From: Candidatus Zixiibacteriota bacterium
Lineage (GTDB): Bacteria; RBG-13-66-14; B26-G2; WVWN01
Assembly: GCA_030613505.1 (NCBI GenBank)
Contig: JAUWLW010000080.1
Span: forward strand, 1 to 6,254
Direction: 5' to 3'
Length of the DNA: 6,254 nucleotides
The position numbers and the translations under genes were made by a program. The notes under the pieces are model-generated. The model had not been told where the DNA came from. It made no database searches and was given only the letters and a program-made list of their open reading frames with translations. Positions 2,175 through 6,167 of this stretch are shown one piece after another. The number at the start of each line of letters is the position of its first letter. Position 1 is the first letter of the stretch.

Positions 2175-2237
2175 CCGCCGCGGCGCTCCGGTTACGCTCC
2201 GCCTCGAGCCGGCGTCAACCTAACCCGCCGCGGCGCT
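2175..2237. repeat. 13-bp direct repeat with palindromic core between convergent genes
   Basis: CCGCCGCGGCGCT occurs at 2175-2187 and again at 2225-2237. Its core CGCCGCGGCG is a perfect 10-bp palindrome, so the two copies (2176-2185 and 2226-2235) can also pair with each other as a stem around a 40-nt loop. The second copy runs into the stop codon of the minus-strand barrel gene (2236-2238). This 62-bp gap is where the two convergent transcripts end, so the structure may act as a weak bidirectional terminator or RNA 3'-end stabiliser. There is no T-tract on either strand, which argues against a classic intrinsic terminator. Confidence 0.4.
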
Positions 2238-2949
2238 AGAACAACGACGCGCCCAGGTAAAACGACACCATAAAGAGGTTGTCGGAGTCGGGCGCCTTAA
2301 ACGCCGGGACGTGCCCCTCCAAAAAATCCTCGAACCCGGTGCGACCCAGCCCGGGCGCGAACGTGAAGCGCAGGCCGGCGTCCGCCGATATCAGGGGGAG
2401 GCCCGGTATTACCCTCAGGCCGACGTCCGCGTATATGCCGACACCCTGCGTCGCCGGTACGCTGAAGTCGAGGTCCAACACGTACTTACCCAGGACGCTC
2501 ACCGGTACGCCATGGGCCGTTAGGTGGCGGCTCAGATAGGCCGCGCCGGCCTCGGCGTAGAGGGCGTAAAAGTAATGCTCCACCGGGTAATAGCGAACGC
2601 CGACGCTGGCGCCGTAAAAAACCGACTTCAGGTCCAAACCATCCATCACGTTCGCCCACGGCAGGACGCCCGGGTACTCTTTCTCGGCGTACTCGGCCAA
2701 AAGCCGGGTTATGGGCCGGTCGCGGCCGAGGGTGGTATAGGACAGGTCCGCCATCACGGCCACGTTCCACCAGGGCAGGCGGGCTTCGCCGCCCAGCGAG
2801 GCGTACAGGCCGCCGCCGTACCGGCCGTCCAGCTCGCCCAGAGGCGTCGTCGTACCGCCCTTTATCTCGACGAGGGCGTGCGCGGCCGAGCCGCACAAGA
2901 CGACGAGGACGGCCGCAACCAGCACTTCATTAAATCCGGAAAGTCGCAT
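2236..2949 (-). CDS. Predicted outer-membrane beta-barrel protein, family unrecognised
   Basis: The product is 237 aa when the second of two adjacent ATG codons (2949) is used. That start lies 6 nt after AGGAGG, whereas the first (2952) lies only 3 nt away. Residues 1 to about 25 form a signal peptide with a hydrophobic core (VLVAAVLVVL) and an A-H-A cleavage site; the cysteine in this region is preceded by leucine, so it is not a lipobox. The mature chain is built of amphipathic strands with glycine and aromatic residues: GGLYASLGGEARL, NVAVMADLSYTTLG, FYGASVGVRYYP, FYALYAEAGAAYL, GVGIYADVGLRV, LISADAGLRFTF, and a last strand ending in phenylalanine (FYLGASLF), the typical BAM-recognised terminus. 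Eight to ten strands seem likely. A GVRYYP-x(n)-YAEAGAAYL pattern is common in small porin-like proteins. The ligand is unknown. It lies 74 nt beyond the barrel-tail remnant and may be read from the same minus-strand transcript or its own promoter. Confidence 0.72.
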   Translation of the reverse strand: MRLSGFNEVLVAAVLVVLCGSAAHALVEIKGGTTTPLGELDGRYGGGLYASLGGEARLPWWNVAVMADLSYTTLGRDRPITRLLAEYAEKEYPGVLPWANVMDGLDLKSVFYGASVGVRYYPVEHYFYALYAEAGAAYLSRHLTAHGVPVSVLGKYVLDLDFSVPATQGVGIYADVGLRVIPGLPLISADAGLRFTFAPGLGRTGFEDFLEGHVPAFKAPDSDNLFMVSFYLGASLF

Positions 2950-2954
2950 CATTT

Positions 2955-2961
2955 ACCTCCT
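2955..2961 (-). promoter_or_regulatory. Shine-Dalgarno deciding the start of the 237-aa barrel gene
   Basis: On the minus strand the sequence reads AGGAGGT followed by AA and then two consecutive ATG codons (2952 and 2949). Spacing from AGGAGG is 3 nt to the first and 6 nt to the second, so initiation at 2949 is favoured. The upstream 2962-2972 stretch repeats GTAGGA-like units, giving additional weak Shine-Dalgarno-like sites. Confidence 0.65.
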
Positions 2962-2973
2962 ACCTACTCCTAC

Positions 2974-2989
2974 GCCGGGCCGCCCCGGC
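2974..2989 (-). terminator. GC hairpin between barrel-tail remnant and next gene; weak terminator candidate
   Basis: GCCGGG (2974-2979) pairs with CCCGGC (2984-2989) around a 4-nt loop, a 6-bp all-GC stem. It lies downstream of the DUF1254 cassette and upstream of the 237-aa barrel gene. The minus-strand sequence after the stem is purine-rich (GTAGGAGTAGG), not a U-tract, so intrinsic termination is doubtful. It could equally be a leader hairpin of the following gene. Confidence 0.25.
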
Positions 2990-3022
2990 TGTGATACCCT
3001 CTACTCCACCTACGTCTCCACC

Positions 3023-3064
3023 CTATTTCGGGAAGAGGAACTGGACCTGCGCGCGCGTCGCCCC
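3023..3064 (-). pseudogene. Remnant 3' end of a second 'neuromedin U'/transporter-type barrel gene
   Basis: Immediately after the TAA stop of DUF1254 copy A, the minus strand reads codons for GATRAQVQFLFPK and then TAG. The intact barrel gene at 5337-6167 ends in WTARVQVQFLFPK. At the DNA level 3024-3050 is identical to 5338-5364 over 27 bp, and weaker similarity continues to about 3064, where the DUF1254 stop codon begins. Past the stop codons the two sites are unrelated. There is no start codon or ribosome-binding site, and only about 12 residues survive of 276, so this is a fragment. It happens to be in the same frame as DUF1254-A, separated by the TAA. The simplest reading is that a second barrel gene once followed copy A and was deleted almost entirely. 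Confidence 0.72.
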
Positions 3065-4087
3065 TTACTTCGCGACCGGCTCCGGGTTCGGGAAGACGTA
3101 CTTCCCCTCCAGGATTTCGGCCCGCGGCTGATACATACGGACGGCGTAATTCCAACCTTCCGTGATGGGCAGGCAGTTTACTCGGCCGTCGCCGCAGCCG
3201 CCGAAGTGAATGGTATAGGAGCCGTCCTCGTTCGGCGTCGCGGTGAGGTTGTTGTAGCTGTACGCGTCCAGGTCGTTCTTCTCGAAAAACCCTTCTTTGT
3301 TGTAGACGCTGACGGACCAGAAAGCGTCGACCGGTACGTCTTTCACCGTGATCTGGTATTCGCCGACCGGCAGGCCGGGCTCCACGTTTAAGTAGAACGC
3401 CTCCTCGACGGGCAGGCCGCCCCAGCCCCAGGCCGTGCCCAAGAGGTGCCGCACCGGGTCCACCTCTTCCTTTTTGCCGAACGTGGCGAAAGCGTCGCCT
3501 ACGCCCCGGCCTAACTCGAGCAGAGCGTCGTAGGTCTTTTTGTAGCTGTCCATGTCGTAATTCGGGAGGACGAAAGGTTTGGCGGAGGCGGCCTCGAGAA
3601 CCAGGTTATCCTGGAGTTCGTTCGCCTTCTTGATATCCGCGTCGTCGGAGGCGTCAACCAAGGTCCGCACGCCTAGAAGGACATAGGGCGTATCGAACTC
3701 GTCCACCGTTAATTGGTAGGTGCCGCCCTGGTCGAACACCTTGTTGATGTAGTGATCTTGGTTGACCACCATCAGCGTCATGTAGCGCTCGCCGGCGTCC
3801 GGCATGGTAACGGTGGCGCCCTCGCTGATGTCCACGACCGCGCCGCTGTACAGCGTGTCGCGATTCATGCGGATAACGTTTTGAGCGTCGAGCGGGGTCG
3901 GTTGCCGGAAGTGGACCCACTTGTTGACGCCGCCGGCCATCTTCACACTCCGATCGATCTGCATGTCGGTCTCGGCGCGCACGAAGTTATCCACGTTGAC
4001 GATTACGGGGTCGTTCTCGGCAAAGGCAACCGCCGAGGTCAACGCTAACGCGAGCGTTAGGATGGCAACTGCGATTAGGCTTTTCAT
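3065..4087 (-). CDS. Secreted DUF1254/DUF1214 protein, tandem copy A
   Basis: The product is 340 aa. Residues 1-23 form a signal peptide with cleavage after A-F-A, so it is exported, probably to the periplasm. The N-terminal DUF1254 part carries P-x-D-A-Q-N-V-I-R-M-N-R-D-T-L-Y-S (residues 65-81) and V-V-N-Q-D-H-Y (107-113). The C-terminal DUF1214 part carries P-V-D-A-F-W-S-V-S-V-Y-N (252-263), the D-G-S-Y-T-I-H-F-G-G strand (288-297), N-C-L-P (304-307) and V-R-M-Y-x-P (316-321). The D-P-V-R-H-L-L-G-T-A-W-G-W-G-G segment (210-224) matches what I recall as the usual family sequence. The only two cysteines, C298 and C305, could form a disulfide. The biochemical activity of this family is not established. 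The start is supported by AAAGGA at 4093-4098, 5 nt before the ATG. It lies 76 nt after copy B and is followed directly by a barrel-gene remnant. It differs from copy B at 21 residues by hand count. Confidence 0.85.
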   Translation of the reverse strand: MKSLIAVAILTLALALTSAVAFAENDPVIVNVDNFVRAETDMQIDRSVKMAGGVNKWVHFRQPTPLDAQNVIRMNRDTLYSGAVVDISEGATVTMPDAGERYMTLMVVNQDHYINKVFDQGGTYQLTVDEFDTPYVLLGVRTLVDASDDADIKKANELQDNLVLEAASAKPFVLPNYDMDSYKKTYDALLELGRGVGDAFATFGKKEEVDPVRHLLGTAWGWGGLPVEEAFYLNVEPGLPVGEYQITVKDVPVDAFWSVSVYNKEGFFEKNDLDAYSYNNLTATPNEDGSYTIHFGGCGDGRVNCLPITEGWNYAVRMYQPRAEILEGKYVFPNPEPVAK

Positions 4088-4153
4088 GGTATTCCTTTCT
4101 TTCGTTTGTGGCGGCTACTCGCCATGTCGTTCTTTCGCAGGCCGAACTGGGTT
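3065..4153 (-). repeat. Tandem direct repeat unit A (gene plus leader), period 1099 bp
   Basis: This segment aligns without gaps to 4164-5252 at an offset of exactly 1099 bp. The match covers the whole DUF1254 gene plus about 66 nt of 5' leader, including a perfect 21-bp block at 4099-4119. Similarity stops sharply at the stop codon on the left (3064 versus 4163) and fades near 4153 on the right. By hand count there are roughly 63 base differences in the coding part, about half synonymous, with perfect blocks at 3156-3277 (122 bp) and 3300-3427 (128 bp). Confidence 0.9.
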
Positions 4154-4163
4154 AGCGACCGTC

Positions 4164-5186
4164 TTACTTCGCGACCGGCTCCGGGTTCGGGAAGACGTAC
4201 TTCCCTTCCAGGATTTCAGCGCGCGGCTGATACATCCGCACTATGTAGTTCCAGCCTTCCGTGATGGGCAGGCAGTTTACTCGGCCGTCGCCGCAGCCGC
4301 CGAAGTGAATGGTATAGGAGCCGTCCTCGTTCGGCGTCGCGGTGAGGTTGTTGTAGCTGTACGCGTCCAGGTCGTTTTTTTCAAAGAACCCGTCTTTATT
4401 GTAGACGCTGACGGACCAGAAAGCGTCGACCGGTACGTCTTTCACCGTGATCTGGTATTCGCCGACCGGCAGGCCGGGCTCCACGTTTAAGTAGAACGCC
4501 TCCTCGACGGGCAGGCCGCCCCAGCCAGCGGCCGTGCCCCCGAGATGCCGCACCGGGTCCACCTCTTCCTTTTTGCCGAACGTGGCGAAAGCGTCGCCTA
4601 CGCCCCGGCTCAACTCGAGCAGAGCGTCATGGGTCTTTTTGTAGCCGTCCATGTCATAGTTCGGGAGCACGAAAGGCTTGGCGGAGGCGGCCTCGATAAC
4701 CAGCTTATCCTGGAGTTCGTTCGCCTTCTTGATATCCGCGTCGTCGGAGGCGTCAATCAAGGTCCGTACGGCCAAAACGACATAGGGCGTATCGAACTCG
4801 TCCACCGTCAATTGGTAGGTGCCGCCCTGGTCGAACACCTTGTTGATGTAGTGATCTTGGTTGACCACCATCAACGTCATGTAGCGCTCGCCGGCATCCG
4901 GCATGGTAACGGTGGCGCCCTCGCTGATGTCCACGACCGCGAAGCTGTACAGCGTGTCGCGGTTCATGCGGATGACGTTTTGAGCGTCGAGCGGCGTCGG
5001 CTGCCGGTTGTGCGCCCACTTGTTGACGCCGCCGGCCATCTTCACCGCCCGTTCCATCTGCATGTCGGTCTCGGCGCGCACGAAGTTATCCACGTTGACG
5101 ATTACGGGATCGTTCTCGGCAAAGGCAACCGCCGAGGCCAGCGCCAACGCGAGCGTTAGGATGGTAACTGCGATTATGCTTTTCAT
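4164..5186 (-). CDS. Secreted DUF1254/DUF1214 protein, tandem copy B
   Basis: This is a 340-aa paralog of copy A with the same signal peptide (cleavage after residue 23, A-F-A), the same N-V-I-R-M-N-R-D-T-L-Y-S and N-Q-D-H-Y motifs, the same DUF1214 F-W-S-V-S-V-Y-N block and the C298/C305 pair. It differs at residues 4, 8, 17, 44, 45, 47, 58, 60, 82, 137, 139, 144, 161, 164, 181, 186, 193, 216, 220, 265 and 315. The notable changes from A to B are F60N, G82F, L216G, W220A and A315I, all large changes in side-chain size and all requiring two or three base changes. H-L-G-G-T-A-A-G-W-G-G (214-224) departs from the L-L-G-T-A-x-G-W-G-G I recall for the family, so B looks like the derived copy there. 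It starts 5 nt after AAGGA (5192-5196) and follows the outer-membrane gene by 150 nt. Family assignment is firm; substrate and activity are unknown. Confidence 0.85.
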   Translation of the reverse strand: MKSIIAVTILTLALALASAVAFAENDPVIVNVDNFVRAETDMQMERAVKMAGGVNKWAHNRQPTPLDAQNVIRMNRDTLYSFAVVDISEGATVTMPDAGERYMTLMVVNQDHYINKVFDQGGTYQLTVDEFDTPYVVLAVRTLIDASDDADIKKANELQDKLVIEAASAKPFVLPNYDMDGYKKTHDALLELSRGVGDAFATFGKKEEVDPVRHLGGTAAGWGGLPVEEAFYLNVEPGLPVGEYQITVKDVPVDAFWSVSVYNKDGFFEKNDLDAYSYNNLTATPNEDGSYTIHFGGCGDGRVNCLPITEGWNYIVRMYQPRAEILEGKYVFPNPEPVAK

Positions 5187-5252
5187 AGTATTCCTTCCTT
5201 TCGTTTGTGGCGGCTACTTGCCGTACCGTTCTCGGGCCGGCCGAGTCGCGTT
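4164..5252 (-). repeat. Tandem direct repeat unit B (gene plus leader), period 1099 bp
   Basis: This is the partner of 3065-4153. The leader part (5187-5252) keeps the block at 5198-5218 that is identical to 4099-4119, and the GCCGA at 5240-5244 still aligns to 4141-4145 with no indel. The junction between units is the ~10 nt at 4154-4163. That B and A share leader as well as gene shows the duplicated unit included the ribosome-binding region, so both copies carry their own translation signals. Confidence 0.9.
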
Positions 5253-5262
5253 GGGAAAATCC

Positions 5263-5290
5263 TGTATAACCGTAAAAAACCGTATGTCGC
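5263..5290 (-). promoter_or_regulatory. Weak sigma70-like promoter candidate for the DUF1254 pair
   Basis: In the 150-nt gap between the barrel gene and DUF1254-B, the minus strand reads GCGACA (5290-5285), a 16-nt spacer and TATACA (5268-5263). Each hexamer matches the sigma70 consensus at 4 of 6 positions. The surrounding 5255-5285 stretch is the most AT-rich part of this gap, with a run of six T. The promoter rules for this organism are unknown, and such a match can arise by chance. Confidence 0.25.
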
Positions 5291-5336
5291 GTATCCACGA
5301 GCTCAGAACTTCCACGTAGCTATTCCGGCACCGTCG

Positions 5337-6167
5337 TTATTTCGGGAAGAGGAACTGGACCTGCACCCGCGCCGTCCAATCGGCGTACGGGAGGTTCTCC
5401 GGGTGGACGACGTTGTAGTAGCCGTGCGCGCTCAAGTTGACAGGCAGTTTCCCGAACCGGCTTAGTTTGCCAACGCCGGCGCCGAATGGGACCGTCCACC
5501 GGTCGTCGTCGTCCGCCTTCCAGTTGGCCGTTATAATCGGCGCGCTCGACACGTACCAACCCTGAGGGAGGTTGTAGGTGGCGAAGTACTGCGCCAGCAT
5601 GGCGTTGACGTCGGCTCGGTTCTCGTCGCCGGCGACGGACCATACGTTATTGACCAGCAGGCCGACGGTCCACCGCCCGGGCATCGCCAACACGACGGCG
5701 CTCGGGCCGACGCCCCATTTCCCGCTGGTCAGCTTGGCGTCGGAGCCGGAGGGGAACGAGAGAATAGGCCCCAACCCCCACATAATCTTCCCGGGGGCGG
5801 CCGGCGTTATAAACGCCGTCGCGTTTATGTCGCCCAGGCCGAAGGTCCCGCCCGTCTCCGCGACGTCGCGTTTCCCCCCGATCATGACAGCATCAGGTTG
5901 GTATACCACGGGTACGATGGTCCGCGTAATCACGTTTACCGGGCCGGCGTTAATCGGGTAAACCGGTTGTATATTTAGTACGTTCTGCACACGGTCGTGC
6001 GTGCCGAGGCCGAAGTTGGTGTTGTTTTGGAACGGGACGCTGATAAGGTTAGCTACGGGGTTCTGCGTCGCCTTGGCAAGCTCCTCCTCGCTCTGGCCTA
6101 TGGCGGCCGCGGTCAATAGGGCGGCCGACGCTAACGACAGCGCCAATAACCATTTCGTACGTATCAT
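5337..6167 (-). CDS. Outer-membrane barrel of the 'neuromedin U'/transporter-like family
   Basis: The 276-aa product begins with a signal peptide (K5, then hydrophobic residues 6-22) with cleavage probably in the A-A-A-I-G-Q region (20-25). The mature N-terminus has the family hallmark S-E-E-E-L-A-K-A-T-Q-N-P-V-A-N-L-I-S-V-P-F-Q-N-N (residues 26-49) followed by L-N-I-Q-P-V-Y-P-I and I-T-R-T-I-V-P-V-V. Databases often auto-label this family 'neuromedin U' or 'transporter'; the peptide-hormone name is a mislabel. Later strands (MWGLGPILSFPS, WGVGPSAVVLAM, WTVGLLVNNVWSVAG, VPFGAGVGKL, LSAHGYYNVV, ARVQVQFLFPK) are amphipathic, and QVQFLFPK is the usual family ending. The product is inferred to be an outer-membrane channel; the solute is unknown. 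The ATG at 6167 sits 6 nt after AGGAGG (6174-6179). It is the first visible gene of the minus-strand set, 150 nt before DUF1254-B. A second partial copy of its 3' end lies at 3023-3064. Confidence 0.82.
   Translation of the reverse strand: MIRTKWLLALSLASAALLTAAAIGQSEEELAKATQNPVANLISVPFQNNTNFGLGTHDRVQNVLNIQPVYPINAGPVNVITRTIVPVVYQPDAVMIGGKRDVAETGGTFGLGDINATAFITPAAPGKIMWGLGPILSFPSGSDAKLTSGKWGVGPSAVVLAMPGRWTVGLLVNNVWSVAGDENRADVNAMLAQYFATYNLPQGWYVSSAPIITANWKADDDDRWTVPFGAGVGKLSRFGKLPVNLSAHGYYNVVHPENLPYADWTARVQVQFLFPK

Follow-up and report, generated by a model that had tools for sequence, protein, structure and literature searches.

Among the closest described relatives of the proteins reported here are three DUF1254-DUF1214 proteins of solved structure, which have no assigned function. 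The predicted model of one of our proteins (copy B, below; pLDDT 94.5) is composed of two beta-sandwich domains, as are 3u07, 2p3y and 6ans, and it aligns over 296 residues with Vibrio parahaemolyticus VPA0106 (3u07, Z 26.0), at a Z of about 23 with VPA0735 of the same species (2p3y and 3vb9; 22.8) and at a Z of 16.3 with Burkholderia cenocepacia 6ans. These structures are only 16-28% identical to copy B, most of their chains are 60-120 residues longer and, whereas they are described without a function, our proteins are tandem copies which differ at specificity positions. No experimental function of DUF1254/DUF1214 proteins, of VPA0735 or of VPA0106 was found in the open literature searched. 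A DUF1214 (PF06742) gene of Malassezia, which has been modelled as a jelly roll, is upregulated on nutrient deprivation and has been proposed to act as a sugar hydrolase (PMC4634964); it has the C-terminal domain in common with our proteins but is fungal and horizontally acquired and mostly occurs in one copy, and there, too, the function has been predicted.

Tandem DUF1254 pairs with a channel or porin gene as neighbour, like the pair described here, occur in Desulfobacterota, Rhodobacteraceae and Cupriavidus, where the porin is found together with acyl-CoA genes. Most of these pairs are ancient, with the second copy being 40-48% identical to copy B, whereas our pair is recent and of one type; other tandem pairs of the same type were limited to the locus L032/L099 (87% identical) and the more diverged L014. 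The recurrence of outer-membrane channel or porin neighbours suggests that DUF1254 proteins may handle small organic compounds in the periplasm. On a plasmid of Cupriavidus oxalaticus (L225) the tandem DUF1254 genes lie behind porin and CoA genes, and next come genes for three tyrosine recombinases and for a Tn3 transposase, i.e., a mobile setting.

The window analyzed in this work is a stretch of 6,254 nucleotides on contig C93, in a genome of 2.9 Mb in 100 contigs. On its minus strand it carries, in this order, an outer-membrane-channel-like gene (5337..6167), copy B (4164..5186), copy A (3065..4087), a 40-bp remnant and the gene of a 238-aa secreted protein (2236-2952), while the plus strand carries the terminal part of tamB at 2-1600 and, at 1670-2173, an LptE-like gene. 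The interval 3065-5186 singled out by the original prediction is correct, as it spans the stop codon of A to the start codon of B. Copy A encodes an exported protein of 340 aa with a Sec-type signal peptide (MKSLIAVAILTLALALTSAVAFA), and the N-terminus of B, a tandem paralog with 94% identity to A and a longer tree branch, is also of the signal-peptide type. Both proteins have the DUF1254 (PF06863) and DUF1214 (PF06742) domains, with scores of 47.2 and 55.2 bits for A and 48.5 and 56.4 bits for B against cut-offs of 22.2 and 25. The channel-like gene upstream of B has a weak, below-cut-off match to Phenol_MetA_deg, and its homologs (35-40%) sit close to DUF1254 genes in other phyla. The 238-aa protein matched no Pfam or NCBIfam family, and lookups in PHROGs and NCBIfam returned no names.

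Alignment of A and B is gapless and a recount gave the same figures as originally claimed, with 21 of 340 residues being different (positions 4, 8, 17, 44, 45, 47, 58, 60, 82, 137, 139, 144, 161, 164, 181, 186, 193, 216, 220, 265 and 315). At the nucleotide level there are 63 base differences, including 30 synonymous codon differences, and the overall dN/dS of about 0.14-0.2 (NG86 0.036/0.169) indicates that both copies are constrained. Codons 47, 58, 60, 82, 186, 216, 220 and 315 carry 3, 2, 2, 2, 2, 2, 3 and 3 base changes, respectively, and the earlier hand count, which assigned to these eight codons 19 of the 32 nonsynonymous base changes, was exact. Base changes are packed into few nonsynonymous codons more than chance predicts: when the differences were reshuffled within codon positions, 3.2 codons with at least two changes were expected and nine observed (p 0.0015), and 0.05 codons with three changes were expected and three observed (0 of 20,000 reshufflings). 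The replacements, all read on the minus strand, are Ser47 (3947..3949) in A to Ala (GCG, 5046..5048) in B, Val58 and Phe60 (3908..3916) to Ala58 and Asn60 (5007..5015), Gly82 (GGC, 3842..3844) to Phe (TTC, 4941..4943), Tyr186 (3530..3532) to His (CAT, 4629..4631), Leu216 and Trp220 (3428..3442) to Gly216 and Ala220 (4527..4541), and Ala315 (GCC, 3143..3145) to Ile (ATA, 4242..4244). Summed over the eight sites, the side-chain volume of B is about 200 cubic angstroms below that of A.

Variability across the family was analyzed in 152 homologs from other genomes, covering many phyla and mostly 40-65% identical, by comparing the entropy of each of 302 positions with that of its six neighbours, with A and B being excluded. 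The highest local variability was found at positions 82, 220, 315, 58 and 60, with 82 as the top variable site in a conserved setting, and A and B differ at all five. The chance of finding all five among the 18 differences of the mature proteins is 5e-7 before weighting for variability. In the 152 sequences positions 82, 220 and 315 hold the top three ranks when the neighbourhood is varied from 2 to 5 residues on each side, the 68 newly fetched loci alone reproduce the same five positions, and in the 40 most distant homologs alone 220, 82 and 60 lead with 315 ranking seventh. The differences between A and B are concentrated at what appear to be the specificity-determining positions of the family, and the five positions would form a family-wide specificity set. 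Of the sites originally proposed to re-tune a binding pocket, 58, 60, 82, 220 and 315 are thereby the family's own top five, but 47, 186 and 216 do not stand out as variable across the family; the Gly216 of copy B was not found in any of the 152 homologs. The observation that the sites adjoin conserved motifs holds, with H59, R61, S81, D86 and G221-W222-G223-G224 being at least 90% conserved in an alignment of 100 sequences, A and B included, in which D77, T78, Y80, R141, D151, F256, S258, Y262, N279, N304, R317 and P321 are invariant.

Comparison with orthologs showed that the five top sites are conserved between them. Of 506 differences in non-overlapping ortholog pairs of 85-97% identity, these sites account for only 10, versus five of 18 in A and B (binomial p 2e-5), and most orthologs which are at least 90% identical keep the signature complete or minus one residue; in one ortholog pair (L017/L019) three of the five sites also differ. 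At the full set of eight sites A and B differ at all eight, whereas other pairs of 86-99% identity differ at zero to four. The runner-up among pairs above 86% identity, with four of eight, is the tandem pair of L099, which belongs to the same locus as L032; apart from it and A/B, no recent tandem pair within a single genome was found. In the L099 pair three of the top five sites have changed (p 0.044). As orthologs keep the five sites while A and B do not, and as the L099 pair comes second, changes at these sites accompany duplication. Free variation unrelated to duplication, which had been named as the outcome that would speak against a re-tuned pocket, is not what was found, since the sites covary and orthologs keep them. 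The second DUF1254 copy at L099/L032 contains an in-frame TAG and is possibly a decaying duplicate.

Mutual information among the eight sites exceeds that of entropy-matched sets (p 0.0024), and for six of the eight the excess is stronger (p <1e-4), while the remaining ten differences between A and B give a p of 0.16. Position 186 showed no covariation with the other seven sites in the 152 homologs; it covaries with helix position 39. Placement in the fold was derived from DSSP, strand faces and mean-field couplings, the last being computed from 152 sequences, a number at which contact inference is noisy. Couplings 84-137 and 87-134 describe an antiparallel register which puts 82 opposite 139, with both 137 and 139 also differing between A and B, and couplings 48-84, 44-137 and 47-71 put the helix 35-51 onto the sheet of 82 and 139. 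Elements of the first domain are connected with the helix 211-220 and the strand 313-321 of the second domain by couplings 73-313, 35-219 and 193-220, so that helix 35-51, the loop 70-76, helix 211-220 and strand 313-321 are coupled across both domains. Position 47, within the first of these helices, is coupled to 71, 315 and 58; the couplings 220-315 and 47-315 rank 805th and 1319th of 45,753 pairs. Residue 315 lies on the same strand face as N313, R317 and Y319, and residue 82 on that of T78 and Y80, with all of these partners being invariant or nearly so. Judged from these contacts and the model, the sites would lie close to an interdomain cleft, which may combine a constant polar core with walls that vary. 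Across the family the side-chain volumes at 60 and 82 trade against each other (rho -0.28, p 0.004) and an aromatic residue at 60 goes with a small one at 82 (p 0.003), as in copy A; the pairing of N60 with F82, as in copy B, is suggestive only (p 0.07). For 220 and 315, a search across the family revealed no such trade in volume.

A and B are sisters in the tree with full support and the branch of B is twice as long. The direction of change was judged from the states in the closest relatives (L006, L007, L008, L014 and L192), which carry Y186, L216 and W or Y at 220, as does A, and B is thus the copy that changed at 186, 216 and 220; position 82 is variable among the relatives. The codon model flags A too, at 82, 315 and 47. 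The proposal that a single copy was re-tuned has consequently to be softened: these states point to B having done most of the changing, though not all of it.

A pairwise comparison of models M1a and M2a favoured positive selection (LRT 22.8, p 1e-5), as it still did, though less strongly, when multi-hit rates were included (LRT 7.4, p 0.025). The branch-site test, which had been suggested as a check, was significant under the standard model for the B branch (LRT 23.3, p 1.4e-6), where it flagged 220, 216, 60, 315, 47 and 186, and for the A branch (p 0.007), but significance was lost when double and triple substitutions were allowed (p 0.098 for B and 1 for A). Among the controls run under the standard model, L104 and the single L099 branches were negative, while p was 0.013 for L007 and 0.035 for the L099 pair taken jointly, and with two of five control tests at p <0.05 this model is somewhat liberal here. 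Positive selection by standard codon tests is therefore not robust, and because the tests are our own implementation and the outgroup branches are long, we do not rest the case on them.

These observations are best explained by re-tuning of a predicted site for a ligand or substrate. We consider it likely, with a probability of roughly two in three, that A and B are duplicates tuned to different small molecules at a site between the two domains and that they act in the same pathway as the neighbouring channel. A tandem duplication would have yielded A and B, exported to the periplasm or the surface, and the varied positions would line a ligand or substrate site where the two beta-sandwich domains join. 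After duplication the first-domain side of this site would present F60 and G82 in A and N60 and F82 in B, and the second-domain side L216, W220 and A315 in A and G216, A220 and I315 in B; of the two copies, B has changed more and would be the roomier. Both proteins may then serve the pathway of the outer-membrane channel and broaden the range of compounds imported or processed. Since A and B differ mainly at the few positions which the whole family varies, presumably to suit different partners, each copy probably deals with a small molecule of its own. The original prediction that a copy had come to serve a different ligand is partly borne out, in so far as five of its sites are family hot spots, covary and are kept by orthologs; the different ligand itself is a probable reading of that pattern. 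In a widespread family the A/B pair reduces the ligand question to two proteins and a few residue swaps, and the five positions indicate where, on the solved DUF1254/DUF1214 structures, the active or binding site probably lies. We put just short of an even bet the wider proposal that 58, 60, 82, 220 and 315, together with 47, 137, 139, 193 and 216, constitute a DUF1254/DUF1214 specificity code across phyla and that tandem duplication beside a channel is the usual route to new specificities.

A and B share two tracts, of 128 and 122 bp, without a single difference, which exceed the expectation for 63 scattered differences (p 0.0085; for the second-longest 0 of 20,000) and suggest gene conversion between the copies. 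The duplication might then be old and homogenised, with selection keeping only the specificity positions apart and the copies being older than their silent divergence implies. The multi-hit codons stand next to sparse silent change and divergence looks much greater in the upstream spacers, save for their last ~30 bases, than in the coding sequence, as such a history would have it; the spacers, however, are only about 60-70 bp long, and the A/B pair was not found in any other genome, so that there is no cross-species sharing of the A/B differences to show. We regard this history as possible but rather doubtful, and it would alter the past of the pair while leaving the functional conclusion in place. 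Neutral or relaxed divergence, with each of the eight codons arising as a single multi-base event, would agree with the gain of ~75 likelihood units over the tree when double and triple hits are allowed and with the concomitant loss of branch-site significance. Multi-nucleotide mutation would nevertheless not pick the specificity positions of the family, of which all top five are affected; moreover, eight of the nine multi-hit codons are nonsynonymous, only one of 11 adjacent difference pairs spans a codon boundary, and the dN/dS speaks for constraint on both copies, all of which makes this explanation unlikely.

That the copies diversified at their surface, in evasion of phages or antigen recognition, might be thought of for exported proteins with a small number of radical replacements. 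Such evasion usually varies whole exposed loops, whereas the changes seen here are single residues inside conserved motifs and on strand faces shared with invariant residues, at sites which are conserved between orthologs, and we hold this to be very improbable. We give as little credence to an assembly artefact in which two strains in a metagenome bin were merged into a tandem pair: the contig is short (6.3 kb) and the identity of the copies is 94%, but flanks and spacers are distinct for each copy, the differences are structured and not random, and many other genomes, some of them complete chromosomes, also have tandem copies.

A congener (G002) has the same neighbourhood, with tamB 80% and the outer-membrane protein 83% identical, but in it the outer-membrane gene is directly followed by the 238-aa gene at an undivided site. 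No DUF1254 relative was found in G002, either at the syntenic locus, which is intact, or elsewhere in the genome, which is rated 78% complete. The segment absent from the syntenic locus is a 2.3-kb island (3064..5337) which holds B and A and is flanked by direct repeats identical at 36 of 40 bp. On the minus strand, the right-hand repeat (5338..5377) is the intact 3' terminus of the outer-membrane gene, whereas the left-hand repeat (3024..3063), which adjoins the stop codon of A, is a second copy of the last 12 codons and stop of that gene and keeps the original downstream sequence. The island may represent either a gain in this lineage, by integration or duplication of a unit of outer-membrane gene and DUF1254 genes, or a segment which G002 has lost through recombination of the two repeats with each other. 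No relative with the A/B pair was present in 60 other genomes, three congeners among them, and the genome collection contained no relative closer than about 65%. The gene of the 238-aa protein is syntenic in G002, with 84% DNA identity over 2199-3049, and the LptE-like gene, which in the window (segment 1641-2198) separates tamB from the 238-aa gene, is missing in G002, where the corresponding gap measures only ~170 bp. Elsewhere, G002 carries a second tamB-like gene (C1:2134156-2135751) which is 47% identical.
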